Shown here one piece after another: positions 22,507 through 51,109 of a DNA stretch of 64,000 nt. The stretch lies in contig RPFO01000079.1 in assembly GCA_009746045.1 (NCBI GenBank), forward strand, positions 1,320,785 through 1,384,784, written 5' to 3'. Origin of the DNA: Mesostigma viride. Lineage: Eukaryota; Streptophyta; Mesostigmatophyceae; Mesostigmatales; Mesostigmataceae. The position numbers and the translations under genes are program-made. How positions within the stretch are numbered: the first letter of the stretch is position 1; the number at the start of each line of letters is the position of its first letter. The notes under the pieces are model-generated. The model made no database searches and was not told the origin of the DNA. It was given only the letters and a program-made list of their open reading frames with translations.

Positions 22507-22599
22507 CAAATTACAAGCAGTCTCGACGGAACGGCCAGGAGGGTCGTTGCTGTTTGCTGCGTGCAGCGTTGACGACGCGAGAAGCTCGTCAGGTGTCGA

Positions 22600-24537: not shown

Positions 24538-25455
24538 AGCCCCGGGACGCGGAGAGGAATGTTAGAGGACATGAACTTGTACACGGACATCTACACCGGT
24601 GACAAGCTTCGCATCCTGGCGTCTAGTGCCTACATAAGGCAGTCGGCGAGGCGGCTGTTCAAGTTCGTCCGGGAGCGACACACAGCGGGGGACACCTGGG
24701 CTGCGTTTATGACGCGACTCAGGGTGTTCCTGAGTGATAAGACTCATAAGAGGACCATAGATGGTTCTCACCTGAAGCAAGAGTACCTGGACTACAAGCC
24801 CATCAAGGGGCAGCTAGTGGTCCACGCCTTTGAAGACTTTGTCAAGCTGAGGGAGGACGCCATGGCCAAAGGGTTCTTCGTTGCAGATCGGATGGCCATG
24901 GGCGACTTTCTCAAGTCGCTGCAGCTGGATCCTGTCACGATGGACAACGTGACCATCCACATGCGCCAAGTCCATGGCTGGGCTGCGATGACAGACCAGC
25001 TGTATGAGTGTTTCAGAGGCAAGTATGTAGGTGGTAAGCGCCCACGTCAAGGGGACGAGGAGGCAGCTGAACCTGCAGTTAAGTCCATGAGGGGATCGCG
25101 CCACGGGGGCCCAGCGTCCTCGAGGGGTCCTGAGACCTCTTCTAGGGGTCGAGGAAGGTCCAGGAGGGGGCGTGGCAGAATGGCTGGACGGGGGACACCT
25201 CCGAAGTCGGGGCATCCACAGTCCCAGTTTGACTTCAAGAGGGTGGGTGGTCCTCCCAAGGCTGGGCCCAGCAGTGGGACCTCACGGGACATCAGTCAGG
25301 TGGAATGTTATTTCTGCCAAGGGAAGGGTCACTTCAGGAATGAGTGTCCCTCGTACCTGAGGCAGGAAGGTCAGAGCAAGCCAGCTCAGGGTGGCAGCAA
25401 GGAGAAGGCTGGTCCATCCCAGGATAAGGGCAAGGGCAAGGCTGCTGATCATTGA

Positions 25456-28400
25456 CTTGAGCCTGCACACATCCCTGAACCCTGGAGGGTGCCCCCAGGG
25501 GTGTGTAATGTAGCTGCTAGTGACGGCAGTGAGGGGCAGCCCCATGCTCTAGTGACAGAGCCTATTGGACACGATGGGGCAAGCTTGGTTACCACAGAGA
25601 GTATGCCAGCTGTAGCTGCAGTGGTTACTCGCCAACGTGCCCGCCATGGCGGTGCTGAGCCTGAGGTAGGACCTGGTGCTGTGGACCCAGGTGGATCTCA
25701 GAAGCATTCTGACCGTGCAGGACTGGCACAGGATGGTCAGGATGAGGATAGGGCTGGAGACAGTCTGACAGGCACGACCCTGGTGCCTCCTGTACATAAG
25801 GGATCTGTACATACCTTGAGTGCTAATAATGACAATAAAAGATTTTCTCTCTTGTATGACATTGCCTCAAGGTTGCATACCATGTTTGGCCATGCAGCTC
25901 AGTCTTTGCAAGTTGCTAGACGGCTGGGAGGAAGTGAGTTGTACTCCATCTGCCAACAGGTTGCTCAAGCTTGCAAGTGCAGGCTAGTTGCTAGAAAGCC
26001 CAAGCAGTCTCATGCCAGGTCTCCTATTTTGCAGCCAGGCCATGTGCAGGTAGATATTCAGAGAATCAGGGGTTTGAAGCTGCTGGTGGCAGTGGACAGA
26101 TATACCAAGTACAAGACCCTAGAGATCCTGCCTGACATGGAGAAGCCTACATTAATTGCTGCTCTGAAGTTGACAAGGAGCAGGTACCCTGGGTTGGAGT
26201 TGTTGCAGTGTGACATTCAGTTTGAGTGCTGTGAGAACCTGCCAGAGTTTCCAGAGTTGCTGATTACACCCAGGGAGAGCCACGGCCAGCAAGGGGTGGT
26301 GGAGAGAGCCATCCAAGAGATCAAGACTGTGCTGCTGGTGGAGAGGATTCCAAGGACGTCATCTGCCATTGTGACATCTGCATGGCTACGTTCTGTGGAG
26401 GATAGGCTGAACCTCAGGACTCCCATGTTCTTTGGTGACATTGCCATCAATCCTCTTATGCTGCACACCAGGATGCTGCCAGCTGATGCTGAGCAGGCAT
26501 GGAAGGAGAAGCTAGAGGCCAAGTTCCTCAAGCTGAGGCAGAAAGACAAGGGCTGGAGTGTCCTAGAACCTAACGTTGGACAACAGGTTGTTGTGTGGAA
26601 GGAGCCAAGCTTTCCAGGGAAACGTGGCAGCTGGCATGATGGGGTGGTGACCCGAGTAGAAGCCGCTGGCCATAAGTGCTGGGTGGCCATTGATGGCTCC
26701 CAAGCAGTGCACCGTCTGTCCTGGTCAAAGATCCGTCCCCGGGGAGGTAATCAAGGAGACCTCTTCCAGGTGCCCGTTGGTGTACAAGGCGGGGGTGACG
26801 TGGAACTTCCTGATCAGGGTGCTACAGCTGTATCGAGCCCTCAGGGTGACCCTGGCCCGGCCCCTGGGGTACCTTCACATACGGTGGTTGGGCAAGCAGG
26901 CGGACAGGCTGCACCTCCGGAACGGCCCGACACCAGGCCTAGGGGTGTGCGTCTATCAGATATTGTACAGGCTTTGCAAAGAGCCAAGAAGGAGCCTAAG
27001 GTGTCCAAGCTTGTCCAGTTGGATGAACCTGAGGTAGCTGCCATGGAGATAGATACCAATGCACAGGTTTCTGTCATGGGACCTCAGCATACAGGAGAAC
27101 TGCTGGTCGGAGAACCAAGTTGCCCCTGGGTGTCTGATTTCAGTGGTAGGACGCATCTAAGGGTGTTGGGAGAGGTTACTGCCCCTGTCATGGGTGTGGA
27201 TGTGACCTTCCTTGTCCTAGAGGACTATGATGGCCCTGTGATTTTGGGTCAGAATTTTCTGGGCAATCCTGGGATTTCTATCAGAGCTACAGCTCTGAGA
27301 AGAGATGGCTGGGGGATGATTCCCCTAGAAAATTTCAGGACAACATTTCCAGTCAGGTGCAGGGCCAAGCCGGTCAAGGGTGTAAAATGGGATGAAGGGG
27401 AGGTGCCCCCAGCAGCCAGTTTGGTGATTCCAGCTGTGTTGCACCCCAGCAGTATTGGCATAACTCACAGGAGCCTTGCTGCACACTCTCCTTTGACATA
27501 TGACCAGCTAGTCCAAGAGATGAGCTCGCCTACTTTGTTTGAGGCTTGGAAGCTCGCCTTCTCCAAGGCATTGGAGGAGTGGTTGCAGTTTGAGTGTGCT
27601 GCACCAACAGACAGACGTCCCCCAGCATCAAGGAAGCTTGCTTTGAGATTTGTGCTGAAGAGGAAGGTTGTGGATGAGGTATCAGTGCCCCATGTCAGGC
27701 CTGTCCTGAATGAGTATCACGGCACGGGGAGTCTGCCAGGAGAGGAGCTGTACACGCCAGGGATGTTACACGACACATGGAGAATTTTGCTATGTCTCTA
27801 CGTGGGGTTGCTGAACAGGGGAGCAGCTATGTCATCAGTGCTGCTGGACTTCAAGAGGGCATTTTTAAAATCTGATCCAGAAGTGGCCAGGAGGGTATGG
27901 AAGCAGGATGAGCCTTACTGTGTTGAGGTGCCTGCTATCTGGAAGCTGGAGCTGCATCAACATTTCCTGGTTATTCTGAAGGGCCTGGAAGGACTCAGGT
28001 CGAGCCCAATCATCTGGAGACTCACGCTGCAGGAAGCTCTGATCAGTGAGTGTGGCTTGAGAGTGTCTTCAGTTGATCCCTGTTTGTTGCTGGCCCAATG
28101 GGAGGGTCTGCCAGTGTATGCTAGTTTGCATGGAGATGATCTGCATTTGCTAGCCCCCACGACCTGGCTGAAGAAGTTTATTCCTGTCATCAGTGGCAAG
28201 TTTTCACTGGGCAAGGAGCTGTGGCAGGAGCCCAACAAGCCTGTAGTGTTCTGTGGAATGCAGGCTACCCTGTTCAGGAGGGATGGGGAGTGGAGTATCA
28301 GGCTTCAGGCTGGAGGAGATTATAAACAGACCATTGTGAAGGCCTTGCCAGAGAAGATCACCCAGGCTGCAGGACCTGAGTTGAGAGGCATGTGGGCCTG

Positions 28401-28875
28401 GTTTGCCAGCATCTGTGGTCCGTCTTTGATGGTCCATAGCAGAATGCCTGATGAGGTGCTTGAGGATGAGAAGCCTCGAGTCATAGCCCGATTGGTGGAG
28501 AGTACCCCTGATCTGATTTTGTCTGGGATTGACTTTGCCCAGCCTATCACCTTGGAGATCTTTGTTGACAGTTCCATGGATGCTCGCCAGGTTACCAAGG
28601 TCAGGGGGAGATCTGCTGCTCTGTTTGCTTTTTATCAGAGCAGGGCAAGTTTGTTCAGCTGGTACAGCAGACTGCAGAAGAGGGTCTGTATCAGTTCAGA
28701 TGTGGCAGAATGCAGGGCCATATGCGAGGGGATCCAGTCCAGCTTGTACATAAAGGAGTTAATGCTGGAGCTGGCTTCAGTTACCCCTTGGACCTTGCAG
28801 ATGGAGACGTTGTTGCTAACAGACAGCATGGGTATGGTCCAGTTTGTTCACAAGCAGCTGGCCAGAAGCCGGGAC
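25456..28875 (+). pseudogene. pol: A1 Pol (INT-PR-RT-RH), 5' part, split by B1
   Basis: One frame, 1140 codons, from the Gag TGA to the B1 insertion, with no frameshift. Integrase comes first: HHCC at 25875-25983 (LHTMFGH, CQQVAQACKC), D in VQVDIQR (26051), D in LQCDIQF (26213), E in GVVERAIQ (26299), then a C-terminal SH3-like part. A retropepsin-like domain follows, EIDTNAQVSVM at 27045 and VILGQNFL at 27238. RT follows with LLDFKRAFLKSD (27842) and ASLHGDDLHL (28123). RNase H starts FVDSSMD (28561), with AECRA and LTDSMG. B1 interrupts at RSRD; the last 57 codons are at 44438-44608. The domain order and HGDD are unusual for Ty1/copia. Confidence 0.92.
28871..28875 (+). other. Target-site duplication GGGAC, left
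   Basis: Repeated at 44433-44437. The intact sister A2 has a single GGGAC at the same codon position (about 38001-38005). Confidence 0.97.
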
Positions 28876-29348
28876 AGTTAGTCTCCATGCTTTGCTGTAG
28901 ACTAAGTCTCAAAGGCATTGTGAATACAACGTATGAATAAGCCTTGTAAACCCACGTTGGTATGTGAATATAAATACCACGTGGGCTATGCAGATAGGGA
29001 TGCTAGTCGAGTCGCATACGTTTCCCTAGATAGGTACTTTGGGTACTGAGGTACGTGACAGATGTCAGTACCCAGTATACGTAGTGTCCTGTCATTGGAC
29101 GGTACCAGAGTATCCTAGATAGGGACCGTACTGCAGCGTGCATTGATTTGTGATCGCACGATGCAGTGACTAGGCAGCTACCTGTCATCGTGCGGCCTCG
29201 GGCCAACGGTCTGCACCCAACGGTCACTGGCGGCGCAGCCGGTGAGAGGAACGTTGATAAAGGGTAAACCTATTTTCTAATGAACCAAGCAATTCATTGC
29301 TCACAGCTTTCAGTGTTCTCAAGCAATATATCCCACCGCAGTCTAACT
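28876..29348 (+). repeat. B1 5' LTR
   Basis: Starts AGTTAGTCTCC and ends CAGTCTAACT. A TATAAATA box lies at 28969-28976, about 93 bases in, leaving a long R-U5. It is unrelated in sequence to the family A LTRs apart from the terminal bases. Confidence 0.96.
28969..28976 (+). promoter_or_regulatory. TATA box in B1 5' LTR
   Basis: TATAAATA, kept at the same offset in the 3' LTR (44053-44060). It is the likely promoter of B1 RNA. Confidence 0.55.
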
Positions 29349-29366
29349 TGAATTTTATTTGCTACC

Positions 29367-30395
29367 ATGGCTATCACGAACAAGAATGTCGCTAAGAAGC
29401 TTACCTACAACGAGGATGATGATGGGCAGGATCGGCGGATGCCCAGAGACAACAACAAGAAGCCGGCTGGCGATGCGGCCATTTCCAAGAAAAAGAAAAA
29501 GAACAAAAAGACTCACAATGGTTGCCAGGACGAGGGGACGGCGGCTGCAAAGCCGACCGACCTACCCCCCTCCCCTGCGAGGCCGGAGGCCGAGACGGCT
29601 CCCCCCGGGGAGACCGGCTTACCCTCGACTCCGGCGGCCGCCCCAGCCGCAACCACGGCTGGCGCGGCCATGGCGGCGGAGACCTCGGTGGCAAACCCCA
29701 CTGAGGCTCCACAGTCCGGCCCCACGTTGCCATCTCTTCGGGAGCGTATGCCCCGTCAGACGGCCTCGGTGGCACCGGACGGGACGATTACCTTTCGTCC
29801 CGCCACATCAAACCTTAATGTCCCTTTCGCCCAGGGACATAACCACATTGAGCTAACGTTTGGGCGACCCTCTGCGTCCCTTCTTCGCAAGAAGAAGGAC
29901 ATGGAGAGTATTAAACTCGCACGGGTGGTGCGAAAACCTGTGGAACCCATCGCCGGACAACCAATGTCCGACGATGAGGTATCCGACACTGCCAGTCTCC
30001 CCGATGGGGAGACTGAGATCAATCTTACCCCAGCGCGGCTCCTGGCGGTCGAGCAGGCCGCGCTGGTGGCAAATGAAGAACGCCGAGCGCGGCAGCGGGA
30101 CCGAGAGGTCCGCCGAGAGGCGGCTTTTCGGCTCGCCGCTAAGCGGCAAGAATATGAAGAGGAAGCCGCCCGTCGCCTGGCTACCCACCAGGCGATGGCG
30201 GACGCGTACCGCGAGGCCACCCAGCGGTTACGTGACCTCTTAAAAAATGCTGACTATCCCATGGACTATGCGGACAGTCAAGACCTGGCCGAGCTTGCTC
30301 GGTCAGCACACTTTAAAACCATGTCCTCCATCACCCAAGCCAGGGTCACGGAGGCCATCTTGGCCTGCTATGATCATGGGAGACGCACTCCCTGA
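29367..30395 (+). CDS. B1 ORF1, coiled-coil protein before Gag
   Basis: A 342-residue intact frame starting only 18 bases after the 5' LTR, in a good context (CTACCATGG). N-terminal region: basic patch KKKKKNKK, a possible nuclear signal, then a Pro/Ala-rich stretch. The C-terminal half (about residues 215-310) is a long Arg/Glu/Ala-rich helix likely to form a coiled coil (RLLAVEQAALVANEERRARQ). No database family is recognised. Its TGA overlaps the start of Gag (ATGs at 30370 and 30376), suggesting coupled translation. It sits in the same position as family A ORF1 but has no clear sequence similarity to it. Confidence 0.75.
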   Translation: MAITNKNVAKKLTYNEDDDGQDRRMPRDNNKKPAGDAAISKKKKKNKKTHNGCQDEGTAAAKPTDLPPSPARPEAETAPPGETGLPSTPAAAPAATTAGAAMAAETSVANPTEAPQSGPTLPSLRERMPRQTASVAPDGTITFRPATSNLNVPFAQGHNHIELTFGRPSASLLRKKKDMESIKLARVVRKPVEPIAGQPMSDDEVSDTASLPDGETEINLTPARLLAVEQAALVANEERRARQRDREVRREAAFRLAAKRQEYEEEAARRLATHQAMADAYREATQRLRDLLKNADYPMDYADSQDLAELARSAHFKTMSSITQARVTEAILACYDHGRRTP

Positions 30396-31590
30396 CATAC
30401 CCGAGGATGAAGCTGCCTTTCAGGCAGCCCTCCGGGAGCATGAGGTACGCAAGGAGATGAAGCGTCTCATGCGGGAGGAGGCCAGGAGGAGAGCAGAGGC
30501 AGACACCCCTGCCCGCCCCTCCACCGATGGGGCTGGACCCAGTGGGGTTACCCGGACAACCCCGGGCTCCCCCAGGGCCACCATGACCCCCCCTCCCCCT
30601 CCCCCACCACCCCAGGTTCGCCCTGTGGGTTGGGGCCCCCTCCCAAACCAGGGGGGGTGGCCAGGACCCCAGGAGGCCCTGGGGGGAGGTGCAGAGGTGC
30701 CACAGGCACCCAACAGGCCTGCTGAAGCCCCCCCAAGGAGCGGGGATGTCCTGGAACAGCTCGCCATTCTCCAGGCCCAGCTGGCCTCGTTGCAAGATCA
30801 GCAGTTAACAGCTAACCAGCTGCAAACTGTCGAGGGCCTGCGCGCCCTGATGTCGCGGTATGAGCGGGGGACCATCAACCTGGACCCCACCCGCCTGCAA
30901 CAAGCAACCGACGGCTTCTTGAGGGCCAACCCCCCTCTCACAGGTGTGTTTAACCCTCATAAAAAGGAATCCAAAATCAATATTGCTGGCTTGCCTGAGG
31001 GTCACACTGTTGAACAAGCTAAGCAATTTGTTTTTGCTTTGGAGTATGGGATGGAAGGTCTTAACCTTAGACATCAGTTTAAGGCTCTCAGGGCCTCCTC
31101 CACATTCCATCAATCATCTCCTGCAATCAGAGCATTGATTCAAACCTATCAGGAACGTACCCTGACACCTGAAGCAGCCATTGAACAGTGGCCTACCTTT
31201 ATCACTGATCTGAAACAGCTAGTGCTTACCAATAACCACATGGAAGCAGTAGAACGTTTCAACTGCATGGCTTGCTGCATATAAGGTGAACAAGAATAAC
31301 CTCTCTGGGGATGCAAAAACATACAGGGTAATGATTGAGAAAGACCTTGAGCTTCTCAAGCTCCAACCAAGGTATCTCATCCACACCTGGCTAACAAAAG
31401 CTAATTTGCAACCTTCTGTCCTGGCTACCCTGCTTACAGGCCTCAAGTCCCTCTGGGACAACTTCAGAGCTGCCATGCTCTATATCGAGGAGGCAGTGGA
31501 CCCCCTGGGTACTGGCAACAACCAGGCCCAGGACCCCAAGGTCCAGGGTGTCCAAGGCCACAAACGCAAGGGGCAGGCCAGCCAGGGGGG
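30370..31590 (+). pseudogene. gag: B1 Gag, N-terminal part, frameshifted and cut by A2
   Basis: Starts inside the end of ORF1 (AMIMGDALPDIPE). An acidic/helical start (AFQAALREHEVRKEMKRL), a polyproline run, a coiled-coil-like segment around LEQLAILQAQLASLQDQQ, then a helical capsid-like region (NIAGLPEGHTVEQAKQFVF). A one-base shift near 31258 moves the frame, after which it runs AWLAAYKVNKNNL onward to SQGG at the GGGGG target of A2. It resumes in frame at 39627 after removal of A2 and its duplication, so A2 insertion is the second lesion. Confidence 0.85.
31586..31590 (+). other. Target-site duplication GGGGG, left
   Basis: Repeated at 39622-39626. Joining 31590 to 39627 restores the B1 gag frame, which supports the assignment despite the low complexity. 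Confidence 0.85.
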
Positions 31591-32290
31591 AGTTAACGCC
31601 AAGCGCATTGGCGTGATCCTGATTCGGCATATCTCTGCGATTCCAGCGGCACCGGAACGAGTTCATTCCGACGAGTATCAAGAAAGTTATGGCGTTCCGA
31701 CTTCCCGGTCGCGCGCGAGCGCGAGCCGGCTGTTCTTCTAAGTCGGACGTGAATATTTGCCGACGACATATGGGGTCGACAGTAATTCCTGGGCTGACAG
31801 GAATTAGGTGCTGTACCTACGACGGTATTGGATTAATACGTCGTACGCAGGAAATAGGAACCTTAACCTGTGGTCTGTTGGTACCGCAGGCTTAGTCCTG
31901 GGCTTCTAGGTGCAGATGCAATACTAGTCACTGTGGACTGTGCTCTGTGGTCACTGTGCCTGTATGGCAGACCTACTGTATAGGAGCTGGGCGCTGTACA
32001 GGTAGTGAATACTGTACCGGGGGTGTTATTACTGAGCAGGCCTCCTAGGCTGCTCAGGACTAGCAAGCACAGTGCACAAGTATATAAACAATAGGCCAGT
32101 GCCAAATGGGCATCTCTTGCGAGCCCGCCTCACGTGTTGTGCCTTGACTTGGCAAGCGCGTGTACAAGCCTCACGTGTGTGAGCGCTGTAAACATTATCC
32201 GATTTTAACAAAGCTCCGTTTCCAACCATATCACACATTGCTGCATTGCAACCATATCCTTCACATTGCAGGTGCTAAGAAAGCTTAACT
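31591..32290 (+). repeat. A2 5' LTR
   Basis: Starts AGTTAACGCC and ends AAGCTTAACT, with TATATAAACA at 32081. Confidence 0.95.
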
Positions 32291-32383
32291 CAAATTACAA
32301 CCAGTCTCAGCGGAACGGCCAGGAGGGTCGTTGCCGGTTGCGGTGTGCAGCGTTTACGACGAGAGGAGCTCGTCTGGTGGTGA

Positions 32384-33304
32384 ATGGTGCAGGAGGAACA
32401 GCGGCAGCAGGATTTCCGGTTTCGGCAGTCTGCTGGGGGTTCGATTTCTCCTGAATTACGCCGTGTCGTTCGGGATCTATCTTTATTGCTTGCAGATCGT
32501 CCGCCTGTAAATCGCAGCTTCGTGCAATTCGTCGACGACCAGGTCGAAGATTGGGAGCGAATTCTGCGACACGTACAAACCATCGTCATTCCGGAGCACC
32601 GGAGCATCGACGACCTTGAGCAGGAGCTTCACGGGTTGGTCGGCATCCAGACGGTGATTACTGCAGTAGCAGAGCGAGTGCGGACGGAGTTGGCAGCAAG
32701 GCGAGGCGAGGTTGCGGAAGCAGCTGGCGCAGGGCGACACGAGTTTGTGCCGACAGTAGCGGGCGCGGGAGTACCACGTGCTTTCGCAGGCGGCATCGGC
32801 GACGAGGGTGTTGCAGCGGGTCCAGTTAGGCGTGAACGACGCGGAGCGGAGCACTACAGGCGGCTTGCAGAGGTCGGGGCGACAGCGGAAGCCATCGCCG
32901 GAGGACAGCGCGCGACAAGAGTCGGCAGGTTTCCAGAGCGAGTAAGAGTTCCTTTTCAGGAGCTGCCCCCGCCCCTTCGCGTTCGTGTGACGCGTTGGGA
33001 GGAGTTTGCACCTCTTAGGTACGAGAGTGACCTTGAGGTAGGAGCAGGGGGTGTCGCTGGGCTAGGCGACGAGGCACTCGGCGACCACGAGGTGCCAACG
33101 TACAATCCGCGAGGTGCCAACGACGGGTTGTCACCTGTCTACTTTACCAACGGTGACGATTCAGTCATCGCGGGCCGACAGCGGGTCGACGACGGCGCAG
33201 CAGGTAGCAGGGTACCAGAGCTGATTGTGGTGAGCGACAGCGACGACGACAGCGACAAGGAGAACCAGGACGCGCCTGGGGCCAGCCGTGGTGGTCTTGC
33301 CTGA
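32384..33304 (+). CDS. A2 ORF1, unknown protein before Gag
   Basis: 306 residues, intact, collinear with A1 ORF1. Conserved parts are the N-terminal helix (SPELRRVVRDLSLLLADRP), VDDQVEDWERIL, the ERRGAEHYRRLAEV block, the LRVRVTRWEEFAPL block and the acidic end PELIVVSDSDDDSDKENQ. The end again combines a hydrophobic-then-acidic SUMO-interaction-like motif with KEN. There is no membrane segment and no zinc motif. The function is unknown. Confidence 0.75.
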   Translation: MVQEEQRQQDFRFRQSAGGSISPELRRVVRDLSLLLADRPPVNRSFVQFVDDQVEDWERILRHVQTIVIPEHRSIDDLEQELHGLVGIQTVITAVAERVRTELAARRGEVAEAAGAGRHEFVPTVAGAGVPRAFAGGIGDEGVAAGPVRRERRGAEHYRRLAEVGATAEAIAGGQRATRVGRFPERVRVPFQELPPPLRVRVTRWEEFAPLRYESDLEVGAGGVAGLGDEALGDHEVPTYNPRGANDGLSPVYFTNGDDSVIAGRQRVDDGAAGSRVPELIVVSDSDDDSDKENQDAPGASRGGLA

Positions 33305-33406
33305 GTGGTAACACTTGGCACTTTCCTTTCTTGTTCAGTAGCTTATATTGCTTTAATTGCTGCTTGGCCACTTGGCTGGCTGTAGCAGATCTGAACAGAG
33401 GCCATC

Positions 33407-34585
33407 ATGGAGGATGGAGCTATCAACCAACAAGCGGGCTTTATGGGCTTTGGACGGCGCGGCGCTGGGACGAGATGGACGCGATGGACGCGGTGGACGC
33501 GATGGACGCGGGGACGGCCAGGCGCTGGGAGACCAGGCTGAGGTGCCAGATAATCAGAGCCAAGGATCTCAGGGCGGGCAGCACGCGCCAGCCGCAGATC
33601 AAGCGGCGCCTAAGCGACCAACCGTTGCTGAGGGGTACGCGGTGCTAGGCCAGTTTCAGTCCATCAAGGACAATTGGCAGCCCCGGGATGCTGAGAGGAT
33701 GTTAGAGGACATGAACTTGTACACGGAGATATACAACGGTGACAAGCTTCGCATCCTGGCGTCTAGTGCCTACATACGGCAGTCGGCGAGGCGGCTGTTC
33801 AAGTTTGTTCGGGAGCGACACGCGGCGGGGGACACCTGGACGGCGTTTATGACGCGACTCAGGTCGTTCCTGAGTGACAAGAGGACCATAGATGGGTCCC
33901 ACCTGAAGCAAGAATACCTGGACTACAAGCCCATCAAGGGGCAACTAGTGGTCCACGCCTTTGAAGACTTCGTCAAGCTGAGGGAGGACGCCATGGCCAA
34001 GGGCTTCTTCGTCGCAGATCGGATGGCCATGGGCGACTTTCTCAAGTCGCTGCAGCTGGATCCGGTCACCATGGATAATGTGACCATCCACATGCGACAG
34101 GTCCATGGCTGGGCAGCCATGACGGATCAGTTGTATGAGTGTTTCAGCGGCAAGTACGTGGGGGTAAGCGCCCTCGTCAGAATGATGAGGAGGCCACTGA
34201 ACCCACGGTTAAGTCCATGAGGGGATCGGGCCACGGGGGCCCAGCGTCCTCGAGAGGGCCTGAGACCTCTTCAAGGGGTCGAGGAAGGTCCAGGAGGGGG
34301 CGTGACAGAAGGGCTGGACGGGGGACCCCGCCGAAGTCGGGACATCCACAGTCCCAGTTTGACTTCAAGAGGGTGGGTGGTCCTCCCAAGGCTGGGCCCA
34401 GCAGTGGGACCTCACGGGACATCAGTCAGGTGGAATGTTATTTCTGCCAGGGGAAGGGTCACTTCAGGAATGAGTGTCCCTCGTACCTGAGGCAGGAAGG
34501 TCAGAGCAAGCCAGCTCAGGGTGGCAGCAAGGACAAGGCTGGTCCATCCCAGGACAAGGGCAAGGGCAAGGCTGCTGATCATTGA
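33407..34585 (+). pseudogene. gag: A2 Gag, two compensating frameshifts
   Basis: ATG at 33407 (MEDGAINQQAGF). Compared with A1 there is one extra base near 33471 and one missing base near 34165, so the middle reads in a different frame (33474-34160, DGRDGRGGRDGRG and the capsid-like helices LYTEIYNGDKLRI, HAFEDFVKLREDAM). The end returns to the original frame with an Arg/Gly-rich region and zinc knuckle CYFCQGKGHFRNEC at 34436-34477. It ends at TGA 34583-34585. Unlike A1 it lacks the 636-bp insertion. Confidence 0.88.
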
Positions 34586-37500
34586 CTTGAGCCTGCACAC
34601 ATCCCTGAACCCTGGAGGGTGCCCCCAGGGGTGTGTAATGAAGCTGCTAGTGACAGCAGTGAGGGGCAGCCCCATGCTCTAGTGAAAGAGCCTATTGGAC
34701 ACGATGGGGCAAGCTTGGTTACCACAGAGAGTATGCCAGCTGTAGCTGCAGTGGTTACTCGCCAACGTGCCCGCCATGGCGGTGCTGAGCCTGAGGTAGG
34801 ACCTGGTGATGTGGACCCAGGTGGATCTCAGAAGCATTCTGACCGTGCAGGACTGGCACAGGATGGTCAGGATGAGGATAGGGCTGGAGACAGTCTGACA
34901 GGCACGACCCTGGTGCCTCCTGTACATAAGGGATCTGTACATACCTTGAGTGCTAATAATGACAATAAAAGGTTTTCTCTCTTGTATGACATTGCCTCAA
35001 GGTTGCATACCATGTTTGGCCATGCAGCTCAGTCTTTGCAAGTTGCTAGACGGCTGGGAGGAAGTGAGTTGTACTCCATCTGCCAACAGGTTGCTCAAGC
35101 TTGCAAGTGCAGGCTAGTTGCTAGAAAGCCCAAGCAGTCTCATGCCAGGACTCCTATTTTGCAGCCAGGCCATGTGCAGGTAGATATTCAGAGAATCAGG
35201 GGTTTGAAGCTGCTGGTGGCAGTGGACAGATATACCAAGTACAAGACCCTAGAGATCCTGCCTGACATGGAGAAGCCTACATTGATTGCTGCTCTGAAGT
35301 TGACAAGGAGCAGGTACCCTGGGTTGGAGTTGTTGCAGTGTGACATTCAGTTTGAGTGCTGTGAGAACCTGCCAGAGTTTCCAGAGTTGCTGATTACACC
35401 CAGGGAGAGCCACGGCCAGCAAGGGGTGGTGGAGAGAGCCATCCAAGAGATCAAGACTGTGCTGCTGGTGGAGAGGATTCCAAGGACGTCATCTGCCATT
35501 GTGACATCTGCATGGCTACGTTCTGTGGAGGACAGGCTGAACCTGAGGACTCCCATGTTCTTTGGTGACATTGCCATCAATCCTCTTATGCTGCATACCA
35601 GGATGCTGCCAGCTGATGCTGAGCAGGCATGGAAGGAGAAGCTAGAGGCCAAGTTCCTCAAGCTGAGGCAGAAAGACAAGGGCTGGAGTGTCCTAGAACC
35701 TAACGTTGGACAACAGGTTGTTGTGTGGAAGGAACCAAGCTTTCCAGGGAAACGTGGCAGCTGGCATGATGGGGTGGTGACCCGAGTAGAAGCCGCTGGC
35801 CATAAGTGCTGGGTGGCCATTGATGGCTCCCAAGCAGTGCACCGTCTGTCCTGGTCAAAGATCCGTCCCCGGGGAGGTAATCAAGGAGACCTCTTCCAGG
35901 TGCCCGCTGGTGTACAAGGCGGGGGTGACGTGGAGCTTCCTGATCAGGGTGCTACAGCTGTATCGAGCCCTCAGGGTGACCCTGGCCCGGCCCCTGGGGT
36001 ACCTTCACATACGGTGGTTGGGCAAGCAGGCGGACAGGCTGCACCTCCGGAACGGCCCGACACCAGGCCTAGGGGTGTGCGTCTATCAGATATTGTACAG
36101 GCTTTGCAAAGAGCCAAGAAGGAGCCTAAGGTGTCCAAGCTTGTCCAGTTGGATGAACCTGAGGTAGCTGCCATGGAGATAGATACCAATGCACAGGTTT
36201 CTGTCATGGGACCTCAGCATACAGGAGAACTGCTGGTCGGAGAACCAAGTTGCCCCTGGGTGTCTGATTTCAGTGGTAGGACGCATCTAAGGGTGTTGGG
36301 AGAGGTTACTGCCCCTGTCATGGGTGTGGATGTGACCTTCCTTGTCCTAGAGGACTATGATGGCCCTGTGATTTTGGGTCAGAATTTTCTGGGCAATCCT
36401 GGGATTTCTATCAGAGCTACAGCTCTGAGAAGAGATGGCTGGGGGATGATTCCCCTAGAAAATTTCAGGACAACATTTCCAGTCAGGTGCAGGGCCAAGC
36501 CGGTCAAGGGTGTAAAATGGGATGAAGGGGAGGTGCCCCCAGCGGCCAGTTTGGTGATTCCAGCTGTGTTGCACCCCAGCAGTATTGGCATAACTCACAG
36601 GAGCCTTGCTGCACACTCTCCTTTGACATATGACCAGCTGGTCCAAGAGATGAGCTCGCCTACTTTGTTTGAGGCTTGGAAGCTCGCCTTCTCCAAGGCA
36701 TTGGAGGAGTGGTTGCAGTTTGAGTGTGCTGCACCAACAGACAGACGTCCCCCAGCATCAAGGAAGCTTGCTTTGAGATTTGTGCTGAAGAGGAAGGTTG
36801 TGGATGAGGTATCAGTGCCCCATGTCAGGCCTGTCCTGAATGAGTATCACGGCACGGGGAGTCTGCCAGGAGAGGAGCTATACACGCCAGGGATGCTACA
36901 CGACACATGGAGAATTTTGCTATGTCTCTACGTGGGGTTGCTGAACAGGGGAGCAGCTATGTCATCAGTGCTGCTGGACTTCAAGAGGGCATTTTTAAAA
37001 TCTGATCCAGAAGTGGCCAGGAGGGTGTGGAAGCAGGATGAGCCTTACTGTGTTGAGGTGCCTGCCATCTGGAAGCTGGAGCTGCATCAACAATTCCTGG
37101 TTATTCTGAAGGGCCTGGAAGGACTCAGGTCGAGCCCAATCATCTGGAGACTCACGCTGCAGGAAGCTCTGATCAGTGAGTGTGGCTTGAGAGTGTCTTC
37201 AGTTGATCCCTGTTTGCTGCTGGCCCAATGGGAGGGTCTGCCAGTGTATGCTAGTTTGCATGGAGATGATCTGCATTTGCTAGCCCCCACGACCTGGCTG
37301 AAGAAGTTTATTCCTGTCATCAGTGGCAAGTTTTCACTGGGCAAGGAGCTGTGGCAGGAGCCCAACAAGCCTGTAGTGTTCTGTGGAATGCAGGCTACCC
37401 TGTTCAGGAGGGACGGGGAGTGGAGTATCAGGCTTCAGGCTGGAGGAGATTATAAACAGACCATTGTGAAGGCCTTGCCAGAGAAGATCACCCAGGCTGC

Positions 37501-38176
37501 AGGACCTGAGTTGAGAGGCATGTGGGCCTGGTTTGCCAGCATCTGTGGTCCGTCTTTGATGGTCCATAGCAGAATGCCTGATGAGGTGCTTGAGGATGAG
37601 AAGCCTCGAGTCATAGCCCGGTTGGTGGAGAGTACCCCTGATCTGATTTTGTCTGGGATTGACTTTGCCCAGCCTATCACCTTGGAGATCTTTGTTGACA
37701 GTTCCATGGATGCTCGCCAGGTTACCAAGGTCAGGGGGAGATCTGCTGCTCTGTTTGCTTTTTATCAGAGCAGGGCAAGTTTGTTCAGCTGGTACAGCAG
37801 ACTGCAGAAGAGGGTCTGTATCAGTTCAGATGTGGCAGAATGCAGGGCCATATGCGAGGGGATCCAGTCCAGCCTGTACATAAAGGAGTTAATGCTGGAG
37901 CTGGCTTCAGTTACCCCTTGGACCTTGCAGATGGAGACGTTGTTGCTAACAGACAGCATGGGTATGGTCCAGTTTGTTCACAAGCAGCTGGCCAGGAGCC
38001 GGGACCTGGATTATTTGTTGCTGAAGGAGTTGGCCAGTTTGGTTGACTTGAAGCATATCCCTGGCGAGGAGAACCCTGCTGATGCATTGACAAAGCTGCC
38101 ACACAAGGCCCCAGCCCAGTACAATGTACTGAGGAAGCTCATGAATGCTGACTGTCAAGTCGGTCTATCTGTCTAA
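34586..38176 (+). CDS. pol: A2 Pol polyprotein: integrase, protease-like, RT, RNase H
   Basis: 1196 sense codons open from the Gag TGA to TAA at 38174, with no upstream ATG until about residue 50, so expression probably needs readthrough of the UGA. Integrase: HHCC (LHTMFGH, CQQVAQACKC, about 35005-35113), D/D/E in VQVDIQR, LQCDIQF and GVVERAIQ. Retropepsin-like domain after integrase: EIDTNAQVSVM (about 36175) and VILGQNFL (about 36368), with N replacing the glycine of DTG. RT: LLDFKRAFLKSD (36972) and ASLHGDDLHL (37253). RNase H: FVDSSMD, AECRA, LTDSMG, and the copia-like end HIPGEENPADALTKL. Textbook Ty1/copia order is PR-INT-RT-RH with YVDD. Confidence 0.93.
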   Translation, partial: LEPAHIPEPWRVPPGVCNEAASDSSEGQPHALVKEPIGHDGASLVTTESMPAVAAVVTRQRARHGGAEPEVGPGDVDPGGSQKHSDRAGLAQDGQDEDRAGDSLTGTTLVPPVHKGSVHTLSANNDNKRFSLLYDIASRLHTMFGHAAQSLQVARRLGGSELYSICQQVAQACKCRLVARKPKQSHARTPILQPGHVQVDIQRIRGLKLLVAVDRYTKYKTLEILPDMEKPTLIAALKLTRSRYPGLELLQCDIQFECCENLPEFPELLITPRESHGQQGVVERAIQEIKTVLLVERIPRTSSAIVTSAWLRSVEDRLNLRTPMFFGDIAINPLMLHTRMLPADAEQAWKEKLEAKFLKLRQKDKGWSVLEPNVGQQVVVWKEPSFPGKRGSWHDGVVTRVEAAGHKCWVAIDGSQAVHRLSWSKIRPRGGNQGDLFQVPAGVQGGGDVELPDQGATAVSSPQGDPGPAPGVPSHTVVGQAGGQAAPPERPDTRPRGVRLSDIVQALQRAKKEPKVSKLVQLDEPEVAAMEIDTNAQVSVMGPQHTGELLVGEPSCPWVSDFSGRTHLRVLGEVTAPVMGVDVTFLVLEDYDGPVILGQNFLGNPGISIRATALRRDGWGMIPLENFRTTFPVRCRAKPVKGVKWDEGEVPPAASLVIPAVLHPSSIGITHRSLAAHSPLTYDQLVQEMSSPTLFEAWKLAFSKALEEWLQFECAAPTDRRPPASRKLALRFVLKRKVVDEVSVPHVRPVLNEYHGTGSLPGEELYTPGMLHDTWRILLCLYVGLLNRGAAMSSVLLDFKRAFLKSDPEVARRVWKQDEPYCVEVPAIWKLELHQQFLVILKGLEGLRSSPIIWRLTLQEALISECGLRVSSVDPCLLLAQWEGLPVYASLHGDDLHLLAPTTWLKKFIPVISGKFSLGKELWQEPNKPVVFCGMQATLFRRDGEWSIRLQAGGDYKQTIVKALPEKITQAAGPELRGMWAWFASICGPSLMVHSRMPDEVLEDEKPRVIARLVESTPDLILSGIDFAQPITLEIFVDSSMDARQVTKVRGRSAALFAFYQSRASLFSWYSRLQKRVCISSDVAECRAICEGIQSSLYIKELMLELASVTPWTLQMETLLLTDSMGMVQFVHKQLARSRDLDYLLLKELASLVDLKHIPGEENPADALTKLPHKAPAQYNVLRKLMNADCQVGLSV

Positions 38177-38924
38177 AAGCTGAGAGCTGGGTGCTTAAGT
38201 CTCTGGATATCAGGCTGGGAGCTTGATTGTACATAATCCTGAGCACACCTTGAGGGGTGAGACATGTCTCTGGTGTGGGAATGTCTGACATTGTCTCTGA
38301 TGGAGAGATGTCTATCTGGGGTTTTCATCTCAGTCTGAGGTTTCCCCAGATCTGTGGTTTGTGGGCGGGGTTCGATTCCCTGGTGCCGTCTTAAGGCGGA
38401 GTTTCACGGACTGGCTGACCCATCCACCATGCTGGTGAGGTGGCGACAGGTCCCCTGATTTTCCACGGTTGGAACGAGTATGGGAGCTTGTGTTTTGCAT
38501 GTGCTTCGCGTAGATGTTGTGTCTGGTTCGATAAGGGGCAGCAGACCGGCGCCGACTCCCGTCTGGGGGTCAGCAATGTTTTCTGATGAGCTGTTGTGGG
38601 TGATCTGTGGGGTTTCGCCTAAGGTCCTGAAGGTTGTACATACTTCTCAAGTTCTTAACTGAACACCTATGGGCTGCCACAGTTGGCCAACCTCTTGTAC
38701 ATGGGTAACACAACGAGCCTCCCGTGAAGGGATAGGGACTCATTGTAATTTGTTTGTGCTCCTGAGCCAGTATGGGTGCTATGTACATATAATAAGGAAT
38801 CCAAGCTGACTGTCATGCCCAGCGGGTTGTGACTTGTAGTCTGGGGAGGATATCCAGTACCCATTGTGTGTGTTTGTATGTAGACTTGTGTGAGCTGCTA
38901 CAGCTCAAGAAAAGAAAGGATTGG
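38177..38924 (+). other. A2 3' untranslated region
   Basis: About 750 bp between pol and the 3' LTR, conserved in A1 at 44609-45358. It contains GTTCGATTCC at 38370-38379 (B-box-like) and ends in the purine-rich AAGAAAAGAAAGGATTGG just before the LTR, the probable polypurine tract. No ORF is recognised. Confidence 0.7.
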
Positions 38925-39621
38925 AGTTAACGCCAAGCGCATTGGCGTGATCCTGATTCGGCATATCTCTGCGATTCCAGCGGCACCGGAACGAGTTCAT
39001 TCCGACAAGTATCAAGAAAGTTATGGCGTTCCGACTTCCCGGTCGCGCGCGAGCGCGAGCCGGCTGTTCTTCTAAGTCGGACGTGAATATTTGCCGACGA
39101 CATATGGGGTCGACAGTAATTCCTGGGCTGACAGGAATTAGGTGCTGTACCTACGACGGTATTGGATTAATACGTCGTACGCAGGAAATAGGAACCTTAA
39201 CCTGTGGTCTGTTGGTACCGCAGGCTTAGTCCTGGACTTCTAGGTGCAGATGCAATAGTCACTGTGGACTGTGCTCTGTGGTCACTGTGCCTGTATGGCA
39301 GACCTACTGTATAGGAGCTGGGCGCTGTACAGGTAGTGAATACTGTACCGGGGGTGTTATTACTGAGCAGGCCTCCTAGGCTGCTCAGGACTAGCAAGCA
39401 CAGTGCACAAGTATATAAACAATAGGCCAGTGCCAAATGGGCATCTCTTGCGAGCCCGCCTCACGTGTTGTGCCTTGACTTGGCAAGCGCGTGTACAAGC
39501 CTCACGTGTGTGAGCGCTGTAAACATTATCCGATTTTAACAAAGCTCCGTTTCCAACCATATCACACATTGCTGCATTGCAACCATATCCTTCACATTGC
39601 AGGTGCTAAGAAAGCTTAACT
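38925..39621 (+). repeat. A2 3' LTR
   Basis: 697 bp, AGTTAACGCC to AAGCTTAACT, followed by GGGGG. TATATAAAC lies at 39412. Confidence 0.95.
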
Positions 39622-39626
39622 GGGGG

Positions 39627-41337
39627 GGCACCCAAGACCCACAAGTCCTCCCACCAAGGGGGCAGTGGCTCTCAGGGGCGTGGCAACACGTGGCACCGTG
39701 TGCCCCTGCATGGCAACCCCAACAACAACAACAACAACAACAACAACAGGTCCCAGCAGGGCAACAATAACAACAGGTCCCAACAGGGCCAAAACAACAA
39801 CAACAACAGGTCCCAGCAGGGCCAGAACCGGTCCCAGCAGGGAAACAACAACAACAACAACACCAACAACAACCAGCCTGGCAACCCTGGGGGGTCCATA
39901 AGGTGCCTGAGGTGCTTCCAACGAGGGCACGCACGGCACAACTGCCCCAACAACGACTCCCTGGCCAACGGGGTGGATCTCTGCCCGGGCTGCTGGCACG
40001 CACGTCATCCCCTGGGGCCTCCAGGCAGCCGTTGCAACAGGCCTCGCTACCCAAATCAATGTGAGTTCACTCACCTTATGTACTCTGAGGATGATGATCT
40101 CATTACCATTGGGGATGGCAACCAGGGCATAATTGATTTTGAGGCAGCAACCTTACTGTCCTCCCAACACCCTGTTCTGGAACCTTACATAAAAGCACTA
40201 ACCCCTACTGTTGACAACTCCATAGATATCAAGGAGCTTGCTCATCAGCTGCACCTAGCCATGGGTCATGAAACAGTGGCTGAGGAACTGGCCAGACGGC
40301 TGGGGGGTAGTAGCATGGGAAAACAACTCAGGAATGCAGTAAAACTGGCTAGACAACACTGTCAAGAATGTCAGTTCAATAGCCCCAAACCTCAAAAATG
40401 GCATACTGCAACTCCTTCCACCAATAGGGGCATGATAGTGGGGGATGTGATGCACATCAACAAAGATGTCCAACCCTACCTGATCCTAAAAGACTCATGG
40501 TCCAGGTTCACAGTAATGGAACCCCTACCTGGCATGTCTGCAGGGCAGCTACGTGTTGCACTCATGATTGCTTTACCCAGATTCTACCCAGTTGACAGAA
40601 TTTTGCTTGATCAACAATTTTCTTGTCTGACTGACCTGGAAGGGTGTGAAGCAATAGAGATTGCTGGGCTGGAAGATCATGAGGGTCAGGGGGTCATTGA
40701 AAGAACCATCAGATCTGTCAAAACCCTACTAGCCAAAAATCCTTCCAAGGATGCTACTTCAGGGGTCTATTGTGACAGGGCACTCTGGTGTCATGAAATG
40801 TGCACAACCCTAAACATGAGACCTGTCTTGCATGCCACGTGGGGTGAAGTAATCCCAGCAGGCCTGCAGGCAGGTGTATATCCCCCAGAGGTGATAGCAC
40901 TGTACAACACTGCACGTGCACAAACCTCAGCAAAACTGGCAGAAAAAGATAAAACCCATTCCAGGCCAGTATTCCAAAAAGGTGATCAAGTTCTCTATTA
41001 CAAGGAAAACAGCTTTGGTAAGGTTGGAACTTGGCTAGGTCCAGTTACCATCCGTGGATTTACCAAAAACAGCAAGACCGTGGAGGTCAAGCACAATATC
41101 AATGGGAAGCGTCACAGGGTGAGCTGTCATAGAATTAAGAAGTATTATTCTCCCATGGCAGACGTGCCTGGGGAAGAGTCTTTAAGCATGGACTCACTAC
41201 TTCTATCTGGCAACTCCAGCATGCCCAGCAGTAGCTCTGAGCCACCAATTACTGCTGTTGACAGCACCACAGCACCCTCTGTGAACCTTCCACCCTCAGT
41301 GAAGCCAGGCCCACTTCACAACCTGGGGATTGCTTAA
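39627..41337 (+). pseudogene. B1 Gag end and integrase, resumed after A2
   Basis: Continues the Gag frame (GAPKTHKSSHQGG), then an (AAC)n-coded Asn/Gln-rich tract at 39718-39875, a zinc knuckle CLRCFQRGHARHNC at 39903-39944, and a second Cys-rich segment (CPGCWHARH, RCNRP, QCEF). Integrase follows directly with no protease between: HLAMGH and HCQEC (40252-40372), D in GDVMHIN (about 40444), D in ILLDQQF (about 40610), E in GVIERTIRS (about 40696), then an SH3-like end (GDQVLYYKEN). The frame ends at TAA 41335. PR-RT-RH continues in another frame that is open from 41262. Confidence 0.88.
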
Positions 41338-43586
41338 CCAGGCACGAGGTAGCTGGGTTGGAAGCATTAGCTCAGCCCCAAGGCACCAAATTGTCTGCCA
41401 ACCCTCCCGCTCTGAGGTCAAGATTGGCAGTCGCCTTGCAAGCATTACACAGGTCACATAAGCAACAAGCTGCTGTGGCCGCAGGGTTGGCAAAAGTCTC
41501 AGCTGTGTGCACTAGTCAGGACCCCTGGACCCTGGCAATAGACACTCAGGCACAGGTCAGTGTGATCAGTGCACAAGCCATCCCTGGTCTTGAGATTGCA
41601 CCTTCATTTTGGGCACGGGTGCAGGATTTCTCAGGCCAAAGCTCACTGGATGTAGTGGGACAAGTGATGCTCCCTATACTTGGTATTCAGACACCCTTCC
41701 AGGTGGTGGAGGGGTACTCTGGTAACACCTTGTTGGGGGAACCTTTTGTATCCTATCCTGGGGTGCTTATCTCAGCTAATGAGCTCAGTGTCACAGGGGT
41801 GGGTGCAGTTCCTCTGGACCACTTTAAAATCCCTCTCTCCAGTATTGTCCCTGGTATGGATGCTGTCATCAAGGCAGTCAACACTCAGTATGCACCAGGG
41901 GAGATCCCTGATCTGGACAAGTTAGTGCACAGCCAGTTCCTCCATCCCTCAGCCTTTGGGCTGGGTAAGTGGGACATAGCCATGCACTCACCCCACCAAA
42001 TCTCCCACGTCATACAAGAATGCAAAACACAAAAAGGGTTTACCAAGTGGCTGATGGCCATTGTCCACCAAGCCAGGCAGGAATGGGTCCTGCCCAACCC
42101 CAAAAACCCTCAATACAAACCGCCTGTCACCCCTTCATGGGACGTGCCAGAGGGAGCCAAAAAGCTCAGATTAAAATTTGTTCTCAAACAAAAACCACAA
42201 AAAGTGGGCTCCCCAATCTTCCATGCCAGACCATGTGTCACAGAATTAAAGGGGACCTCCACACTGCCAAAAGGGGAAACATACACACCTGGGCTGCAAC
42301 AAACCTCACTCAGGATCATGCTCTCCCTCTTCCTCCACAACCTCAATGCAGGCCAAGACTATGTCTGCAAAGCCACTGATATTAAAAGGGCCTTCCTCAG
42401 GGGGGACCCAGAAAAGGCTGAATCTGTGTGGAAAGGGAAGGTGTACGTGGTAGACACCCCAGCTGTGTGGAAACCTTATATTGATGAGCCCCACCTTATC
42501 ATCAACATTGGGGTGGAAGGGCTTGTCAGTGCCCCAAAAATTTTCAGAGACTCAGCAGAGGAAGTATTCAAAAAGCTCAAGGCCACGTATGATGACCTGG
42601 ACCCATGCTTTTTTGTTGTACCCACCCCCTCTGGACTGCTGTTCTTTGTGTGGCATGGAGATGACCAACTCATTTGTGGGCCTAGAGCTGAGGTGGAAAC
42701 CTTTATTCAGCAGGTCCAGGAATCATATGAGATTGGCAAACAGGTGGAATTGAGCACAACCCCCATCCAGTTCTGTGGCATCATGTTGCAGCTGCATAGG
42801 CAGCCAGATCAGTGGGTCTGCTCTCTCTCCCCTCCTGCAGAATATATCCAAGATTGTCTAGATCTGCTGCAGGACAACTACCTCCCCTTACATATGTGTG
42901 CCACTGTTCAGGGCAAACTGGGGTGGTGGTCAGCCATCTGTGGGGCTCCCTTAGCTGTCATCAGCAGGGTCACCCATGATGTTCTAGTCAAGATCAAATG
43001 CAGTCACATCAGGAAGTTGGTCAATGACTGTCCCCCCCTCATCCTCCATGGCCTGAATCTGATGGAAGACATCCACATCCAATGTGTCATGGACAGCTCC
43101 ATGGAGAGCAGAACAATCAATCAGATGGGGGCACGGGAATCAGGGCTGTTTTTTCTCACCAACAGGTCAGATTACATGTCCCTCACTTCCTGGTACAGCA
43201 GGCTACACCGCAGAAAACCTGGCAGCAGCAACTCAGCTGAATGTCGTGCTGTGGTGTCTGCTGCATTGCATGCTCGTTCCCTGCAGCACATGCTCACCTG
43301 GCTACAAACCCAGGCAGGCAGCACATGCAATGTCATCTCACATCTCTACACTGACAGCTTTTCTGTGATCAGTTTTCTAACCAAGAAATCTGTTTCTGCT
43401 GCTGTCCACACTGACCTGGATTGGGTGATCCTCAAACAGGAGGCAACCTACTTTTCCAGCTGGACTCATGTGGATGATGAGGACAACCCAGCAGACGCTC
43501 TAACGAAGCTGCGGGATGCTGCTGGCCAACAGTACCAGCTCCTCTTTCAGAACATGAACCCCTATGATATCAGAGTCAGTGTTTGA
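41262..43586 (+). CDS. B1 protease-like, RT and RNase H
   Basis: Open frame with no ATG near its start, overlapping the integrase frame over 41262-41337. It needs a -1 (or +2) shift, whether programmed or by mutation. Retropepsin-like: AIDTQAQVSVIS at about 41537 and NTLLGEPFV at about 41726. RT: ATDIKRAFLRGD (42373) and FVWHGDDQLI (42648). RNase H: VMDSSME (43087), SAECRAV (43234), YTDSFSV (43347), and DNPADALTKL (43483). Same domain order and HGDD as family A although the sequences are far apart, so the plan is a lineage trait. Ends at TGA 43584. Confidence 0.9.
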   Translation, partial: QHHSTLCEPSTLSEARPTSQPGDCLTRHEVAGLEALAQPQGTKLSANPPALRSRLAVALQALHRSHKQQAAVAAGLAKVSAVCTSQDPWTLAIDTQAQVSVISAQAIPGLEIAPSFWARVQDFSGQSSLDVVGQVMLPILGIQTPFQVVEGYSGNTLLGEPFVSYPGVLISANELSVTGVGAVPLDHFKIPLSSIVPGMDAVIKAVNTQYAPGEIPDLDKLVHSQFLHPSAFGLGKWDIAMHSPHQISHVIQECKTQKGFTKWLMAIVHQARQEWVLPNPKNPQYKPPVTPSWDVPEGAKKLRLKFVLKQKPQKVGSPIFHARPCVTELKGTSTLPKGETYTPGLQQTSLRIMLSLFLHNLNAGQDYVCKATDIKRAFLRGDPEKAESVWKGKVYVVDTPAVWKPYIDEPHLIINIGVEGLVSAPKIFRDSAEEVFKKLKATYDDLDPCFFVVPTPSGLLFFVWHGDDQLICGPRAEVETFIQQVQESYEIGKQVELSTTPIQFCGIMLQLHRQPDQWVCSLSPPAEYIQDCLDLLQDNYLPLHMCATVQGKLGWWSAICGAPLAVISRVTHDVLVKIKCSHIRKLVNDCPPLILHGLNLMEDIHIQCVMDSSMESRTINQMGARESGLFFLTNRSDYMSLTSWYSRLHRRKPGSSNSAECRAVVSAALHARSLQHMLTWLQTQAGSTCNVISHLYTDSFSVISFLTKKSVSAAVHTDLDWVILKQEATYFSSWTHVDDEDNPADALTKLRDAAGQQYQLLFQNMNPYDIRVSV

Positions 43587-43959: not shown

Positions 43960-44432
43960 AGTTAGTCTCCATGCTTTGCTGTAGACTAAGTCTCAAAGGC
44001 ATTGTGAATACAACGTATGAATAAGCCTTGTAAACCCACGTTGGTATGTGAATATAAATACCACGTGGGCTATGCAGATAGGGATGCTAGTCGAGTCGCA
44101 TACGTTTCCCTAGATAGGTACTTTGGGTACTGAGGTACGTGACAGATGTCAGTACCCAGTATACGTAGTGTCCTGTCATTGGACGGTACTAGAGTATCCT
44201 AGATAGGGACCGTACTGCAGCGTGCATTGATTTGTGATCGCACGATGCAGTGACTAGGCAGCTACCTGTCATCGTGCGGCCTCGGGCCAACGGTCTGCAC
44301 CCAACGGTCACTGGCGGCGCAGCCGGTGAGAGGAACGTTGATAAAGGGTAAACCTATTTTCTAATGAACCAAGCAATTCATTGCTCACAGCTTTCAGTGT
44401 TCTCAAGCAATATATCCCACCGCAGTCTAACT
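43960..44432 (+). repeat. B1 3' LTR
   Basis: 473 bp, AGTTAGTCTCC to CAGTCTAACT, followed by GGGAC. Confidence 0.96.
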
Positions 44433-44437
44433 GGGAC

Positions 44438-44608
44438 CTGGATTATTTGTTGCTGAAGGAGTTGGCCAGTTTGGTTGACTTGAAGCATATCCCTGGCGAG
44501 GAGAACCCTGCTGATGCATTGACCAAGCTGCCACACAAGGCCCCAGCCCAGTACAATGTACTGAGGAAGCTCATGAATGCTGACTGTCAAGTCGGTCTAT
44601 CTGTCTAA
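44438..44608 (+). pseudogene. A1 Pol, C-terminal end after B1
   Basis: Last 56 codons of A1 RNase H, in frame with 28875: LDYLLLKELASLVDLK, HIPGEENPADALTKL, ending CQVGLSV before TAA. It matches A2 38006-38176, which proves that B1 split an intact gene. Confidence 0.95.
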
Positions 44609-46050: not shown

Positions 46051-46077
46051 ATGCTCCCCACGGAGCTATGATTTTAA

Positions 46078-51108: not shown

Positions 51109-51109
51109 C

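Follow-up and report, generated by a model that had tools for sequence, protein, structure and literature searches.

Integrase lies ahead of a retropepsin-like domain in two Copia-related retrotransposon families of Mesostigma viride

Three nested long terminal repeat (LTR) retrotransposons, in the arrangement A1[B[A2]], were recognized by self-comparison and boundary inspection in a 64,000-nucleotide stretch of Mesostigma viride DNA (assembly GCA_009746045.1, contig RPFO01000079.1, positions 1,320,785 to 1,384,784 of the forward strand), which we call the window. B (28876-44432) sits inside A1 (21815-46050), and A2 (31591-39621) sits in turn inside the gag region of B. LTR retrotransposons are assigned to superfamilies by the order of their pol domains, and elements with an unusual order tend to be discarded. 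As the available text of PMC6317226 gives it, the Ty1/copia order is protease (PR), integrase (INT), reverse transcriptase (RT) and RNase H (RH), and the Ty3/gypsy order is PR-RT-RH-INT. A first-pass annotation of the window, made from the letters alone, had read a different order in both families: INT, then a retropepsin-like domain, then RT and RH.

Gene order in families A and B

This order was confirmed in A2, in B and, up to the point at which B is inserted, in A1. The INT of A2 is followed by a domain with the motifs DTNA...ILG, by RT and by RH; in B, a CCHC zinc knuckle precedes INT, and the domain that separates INT from RT carries DTQA...LLG. The features are listed here in window positions.

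34976..35905, + strand: A2 integrase; HHCC at 35006 and 35102; D, D and E motifs at 35177-35443; hhalign probability against copia INT 82.7
36164..36481, + strand: A2 retropepsin-like domain; EIDTNAQ (continuing VSVM) at 36176, Asp codon at 36182, ILGQNFL at 36371 (VILGQNFL to 36391)
36656..37465, + strand: A2 reverse transcriptase; DFKRAFL at 36977, HGDD at 37259; hhalign probability against copia RT 99.0
37676..38173, + strand: A2 RNase H; VDSSMD at 37694, NPADALTK at 38072-38095; hhalign probability against copia RH 98.5
39904..39945, + strand: B CCHC zinc knuckle
40252..41154, + strand: B integrase; HHCC (HLAMGH at 40252, CQEC at 40360), D, D and E motifs to the C-terminal end; match to copia INT at iE 0.019
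41496..41828, + strand: B retropepsin-like domain; IDTQAQVSV at 41538, LLGEPFV at 41730; in a frame other than that of INT in the window copy
42378..43583, + strand: B reverse transcriptase and RNase H; DIKRAFL, WHGDD at 42651, MDSSME, NPADALTK
24538..25455, + strand: A1 Gag portion containing the CCHC zinc knuckle, closed by the in-frame TGA 25453-25455 that precedes pol
25456..28875, + strand: A1 pol with INT, retropepsin-like domain, RT and partial RH, cut by the B insertion; motifs as in A2 within 25876-28875
27034..27351, + strand: A1 retropepsin-like domain; EIDTNAQ at 27046, ILGQNFL at 27241
44438..44608, + strand: A1 pol resuming after the B insertion, with the final part of RH

The window copy of B encodes INT and the block from the PR-like domain to RH in two frames, which overlap at 41262-41337. 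Locus L009 of this family carries Gag through RNase H in a single frame of 1767 aa, and locus L012 carries CCHC-INT-PR-RT-RH in a single frame of 1380 aa; the INT-first order in B is therefore not the product of a frameshift. In family A, the boundary between Gag and pol is an in-frame TGA, beyond which pol continues in the same frame. The context of this stop, CAT TGA CTT GAG, was identical at 30 of 30 loci compared, which suggests read-through, and the TGA is probably bypassed in this manner.

To place these copies among others, we searched the genome (439,911,974 bases in 2243 contigs). When the PR-RT-RH part of B was the query, the best 58 of 8417 candidates were scored, the window copy included; all were ~100% identical and had no inner stops. 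The open frame exceeded 774 aa at 40 of these 58 loci and was exactly 774 aa at 18. The 774-aa frame is also that of the window copy, and its recurrence in 18 of the 58 scored copies implies that copies with the shifted frame have themselves spread, either with help in trans or by means of ribosomal frameshifting. For family A, a search with its pol (best 39 of 10,179 candidates scored) and a search with P0001, the outside homologue described below (best 38 of 10,018), returned loci without overlap. Together they give at least 77 family A loci with an open pol of 1196 aa; being the best-scoring copies, these are selected for intactness, and A2 of the window is not among them. Both families are thus of high copy number and were amplified recently with intact pol.

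P0001 is a protein of 1214 aa encoded on a 6.2-kb ENA contig, and it came from a search of a protein collection in which the best 7984 candidates by shared words were scored. It is 62% identical to A over 98% and has the same order and the same DTNA...ILG motifs. A later profile search of the protein collection (best 7986 candidates by shared words scored) found no relative beyond P0001; in IMG/VR and GTDB contigs, 96 and 53 pattern matches, respectively, yielded 0 confirmed relatives. Since intact A and B loci on many contigs and P0001 all have it, the INT-PR-RT-RH order is a natural trait of the lineage and not a peculiarity of one rearranged copy, as had been proposed. With three elements nested in the window and a frame shift in its copy of B, one might suspect an artefact of nesting or of one damaged copy. 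That explanation is refuted by the intact A and B copies and by the same order on an ENA contig from elsewhere, and we give it practically no chance.

Two side observations concern family A. An extra open reading frame of 306-317 aa lies between the 5' LTR and gag (22573-23526 and 32384-33304); that of A1 (22573-23526) had no match in Pfam. A1 also contains a 635-bp insertion (23903-24537), missing from A2, with inverted-repeat-like ends (CTAAACC...GGTTTAG); it is perhaps a small DNA transposon.

Kinship of the families and their affinity to copia

Families A and B had been taken to be unrelated, and this claim did not survive. Their pol proteins are 29.7% identical over 1145 aa, and the ends of their LTRs are similar and unusual (AGTTA...TAACT). 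From the homology along pol and these ends, we infer that A and B are two branches of one lineage rather than independent cases. The LTRs and target-site duplications (TSDs) are as follows.

21815..22506, + strand: A1 5' LTR; start AGTTAACG, inner end in this copy CGTTATCT; TSD ATGCT at 21810-21814
45359..46050, + strand: A1 3' LTR; start in this copy GGTTAACG, end CGTTAACT; TSD ATGCT at 46051-46055
28876..29348, + strand: B 5' LTR; AGTTAG...CTAACT; TSD GGGAC at 28871-28875
43960..44432, + strand: B 3' LTR; TSD GGGAC at 44433-44437
31591..32290, + strand: A2 5' LTR; AGTTAACG...CTTAACT; TSD GGGGG, inside a G run
38925..39621, + strand: A2 3' LTR

Boundary inspection showed that the LTRs of both families end in AG...CT and not in TG...CA. 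Those of family A read AGTTAAC...GTTAACT or AGTTAAC...CTTAACT, the inner ends in A1 each having one changed base. A 5-bp target duplication flanks each element (ATGCT for A1, GGGAC for B and GGGGG for A2). The two LTRs differ at 5 of 691 sites in A1, at 1 of 473 in B, and, in A2, at 2 of 697 with 3 further gap columns; the outermost element, A1, has the most diverged pair of the three. The internal start adjacent to the 5' LTR (32291 in A2, 29349 in B) is without TGG in both families, and a search for self-priming complementarity of at least 9 bases, linking this internal start to the LTR, found none in A or B.

The same window holds a young Ty3/gypsy chromovirus at 8141-17556, with TG...CA ends, LTRs that differ at 1 of 703 sites, and broken frames. 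Its order is canonical for gypsy: protease, RT, RNase H, integrase and chromodomain. A CCT-type microsatellite of ~1.1 kb lies at 49990-51110.

That INT, RT and RH of the two families are copia-like was borne out by profile comparison. In hhalign against the copia domains, only the diagonal pairings scored: INT at a probability of 82.7 (E 9.5e-6, as one comparison), RT at 99.0 and RH at 98.5, with all other pairings at or below 1.1. A hidden Markov model (HMM) of 106 canonical copia pols matched RT with independent E-values (iE) of 4.4e-9 (A), 1.6e-13 (B) and 8e-13 (P0001), and RH with 3.4e-15, 1.7e-6 and 5.4e-14, respectively. For INT, it gave only the match in B (iE 0.019) and none in A or P0001; it matched no protease in any of the three. 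Pfam-A returned RVT_2 in B at 4.8e-5, below the cut-off, and nothing clear for A: rve stood at 0.057, and the zinc knuckle of Gag was the sole match over the cut-off. RVT_1 had no match in A or B at E up to 10; the chromovirus of the window matches it at 5.8e-35. Canonical copias of the same genome serve as internal controls; three were picked from RVT_2 matches (best 150 of 1981 candidates scored), and all three matched Pol_BBD, rve, SH3_retrovirus and RVT_2 over the cut-off and in the textbook order. One canonical copia of the genome, L043, is identical over 1179 aa to P0002, a gene model that carries the EukProt label jgi Mesvir1, a code read here as Mesostigma viride. Judged by these profiles, the copia affinity of A and B is strong for RT and RH and moderate for INT.

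A tree of RT-RH with 36 rows joined A, B and P0001 in a clade with 100/100 support, on a stem of 6.56 changes per column. It gave this clade no settled place among canonical copias. Its canonical rows all derive from the kin of a single Mesostigma copia, without Ty1, Osser, GalEa or CoDi references, and the tree program warned that the placement of long rows (family B and the gypsy outgroup) is unsure. RT phylogeny, to which the first-pass annotation had looked for the placement of A and B, therefore united them without assigning them a neighbor. We call the lineage Copia-related and deeply divergent, and do not file it within Ty1/copia because it lacks the Ty1/copia domain order and protease.

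The domain between integrase and reverse transcriptase

The absence of a visible protease motif between the zinc knuckle and INT, noted at the outset, held under every search. The copia-type protease PF22936 had no match in A or B at E up to 10. When all parts before RT (the N-terminal part, INT and the linker) were compared with copia protease by hhalign, they reached only 0.2-0.6. The pattern D[ST][GANQ] is missing from residues 1-145 of A pol and from residues 1-539 and 539-660 of B. The Gag of A was covered by Pfam, which gave no protease over the cut-off there. A canonical protease upstream of INT was accordingly not found; by these searches, there is no recognizable copia-type protease before, in or after INT.

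The domain behind INT is the best-conserved part of pol between A and B, at 37.7% identity over 106 columns (RT 32.4, RH 34.3, INT 24.7-30.0); the stretch before INT has 12.7%, and B is short of two residues directly before the Asp. The Asp, Thr and Ala of the putative active site are invariant in A, B and P0001, and in all three 70 residues separate the Asp from the end of the ILG motif. We take this downstream spacing to be retropepsin-like by comparison with that of retroviruses. An expression that captures this spacing, D[ST]x[AS]...LGxx, was written post hoc, when A and B had been seen. A, B and P0001 each contain a single match to it, against 0 among 106 canonical copia pols and 5 among 6000 shuffles. 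The domain of P0001 matched PF13975 (gag-asp_proteas) at E 0.0021, with an alignment that runs from position 14 to position 91 of a 92-position profile. Pfam leads for the domain are limited to PF13975 and PF13650, and the protease of the window chromovirus matches both (PF13650 at 3e-6, PF13975 at 2.5e-4); canonical copias of the genome match PF22936 (Pol_BBD). So far as it goes, this evidence points to an ILG-type rather than a copia-type protease. A DTG/ILG template is common to clan AA, according to the available text of PMC2642776.

A number of results weigh against a functional retropepsin. The Gly of the active-site triad is replaced by Asn in A and P0001 (DTN) and by Gln in B (DTQ), such that D[ST]G occurs in none of them. 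Between A and P0001, the domain is 62.3% identical, which is above INT (51.5-58.7) and below RT (76.3) and RH (74.1). The PF13975 match of P0001, at 19.0 bits, falls under the curated cut-off of 28.2; in A, Pfam gave only 0.19, for the C-terminal part, and in B nothing. A search of PDB sequences found no protease match for the domain, and a profile of the domain run against 987 sequences matched neither the window gypsy protease nor any canonical copia protease. Structure prediction, suggested early on as a check of the fold, was run twice from three-row alignments, and the AlphaFold models were of low confidence (pLDDT 36.8 and 43.0); Foldseek, applied to the second, returned nothing under E 0.001 (best E 1.1 among the best 50 of 136 rows). 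The models decide neither way. A few HIV-1 and XMRV protease chains in the Foldseek list (E 3.8-4.5) were treated as noise. PHROGs gave no match.

Sub-threshold family matches and unusable models are what one would expect of some other small domain, rich in beta structure, in which DT.A...LG arose by chance. Such a domain would leave unexplained the 78 of 92 PF13975 positions that P0001 covers, as well as the equal spacing in three divergent sequences, a pattern rare among shuffles and absent from canonical copias, albeit by a post hoc expression. We consider this alternative quite improbable; the domain very probably has a retropepsin fold.

Whether the fold would still cleave is a separate matter. 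Proteases of Ty1 and of retroviruses share the consensus D-S/T-G-A, according to the available text of PMC6952103, and with DTN or DTQ rather than DTG, protease activity cannot be assumed. The domain could be a pseudo-protease that kept the fold, lost cleavage, and serves as a dimerization or RT-holding module, the polyprotein being processed by host proteases or not at all; the departure from the consensus and the failure to find another protease in A or B favor this view. On the other hand, the Asp, Thr and Ala are invariant, and both families have multiplied recently while keeping pol intact. Moreover, of the three canonical copia families used as controls, L043 and L044 have DSA for DSG in the protease active site and the third has DTG; within this genome, a triad without Gly is thus not confined to A and B. 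We regard a pseudo-protease as improbable, and the domain is probably a working protease.

The profile searches thus sustained the first-pass annotation strongly for RT and RH and moderately for INT, and left the retropepsin matches below Pfam cut-offs. Of the proposed retropepsin-like domain itself, the motif spacing and conservation stood; the textbook triad did not, nor is the domain recognizably a displaced copia protease (hhalign probability 0.3). "The same protease in a new place" is consequently only one of two readings. In that reading, the copia protease itself shifted from before INT to behind it and changed until it could no longer be recognized, nothing having been captured from elsewhere. 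The lineage is very divergent, as the stem of its RT-RH tree attests, and a short domain could lose detectable similarity. Yet INT, RT and RH still align to copia and the domain does not, and its ILG motif and sole Pfam leads differ from the Pol_BBD match of canonical copias. We deem relocation unlikely, though it is compatible with the overall explanation given below. According to the other reading, the protease of a Copia-related lineage was lost, and the lineage acquired a gypsy- or host-like clan AA retropepsin between INT and RT, then fixed the DTN/DTQ triad and the AG...CT LTR ends; the outcome would be an additional stable arrangement of pol, still multiplying into dozens of near-identical elements. 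Capture is a tentative proposal, to which we assign somewhat less than an even chance.

Taken together, we favor, at a probability of about 65%, the explanation that A and B are members, with P0001, of a deeply divergent Copia-related lineage that has the order Gag-INT-PR-RT-RH, in which a clan AA retropepsin behind INT cuts the polyprotein. Gag-Pol would be made as one frame, as at B locus L009, or, in A, through UGA read-through. Its dimerization would pair two copies of the post-integrase domain, and the paired retropepsin would then free INT upstream and RT-RH downstream; INT would insert the cDNA with 5-bp target duplications. If this explanation is true, a protease behind INT and beside RT would alter the timing of INT release, and the DTN/DTQ triad would test how far a retropepsin active site can drift.

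Comparison with known systems

An intact, high-copy lineage with INT before a protease-like domain indicates that filters on domain order can hide real elements. According to the available text of PMC6317226, a large plant survey removed elements of unexpected domain order in every case, as likely mispredictions, and elements such as these could therefore have been missed. Among the best-ranked titles and abstract openings of the open-access PMC literature (at most 20 per search), we found no description of an INT-before-PR order in a copia-like element.

The two families resemble Ty1/copia in the type of their RT and RNase H, in having INT before RT-RH, and in their 5-bp target duplications. 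They differ from it in that no copia-type protease precedes INT, a retropepsin-like domain lying instead between INT and RT, and in their AG...CT LTR ends; TG...CA is usual, although not universal, in Ty1/copia. With Ty3/gypsy, they share a protease-like domain directly upstream of RT, an ILG-type motif, and the Pfam leads of the window chromovirus protease. However, their INT comes first rather than last, and their RT and RH are of the copia type. Nor do they show the combination seen in Gmr1-type elements, a gypsy RT with PR-INT-RT-RH.

Two lineages offer partial parallels, as far as the available text of the respective reports goes. Gmr1, a gypsy lineage with a copia-like INT order (PMC2774666), is a precedent for a lineage-wide shift of the position of INT in pol, whereas A and B have a copia-type RT and place INT before the protease-like domain. 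Troyka (PMC12440569), while having the gypsy/BEL domain order, is like A and B an LTR lineage distinguished by LTR ends and target duplications that deviate from the usual ones.

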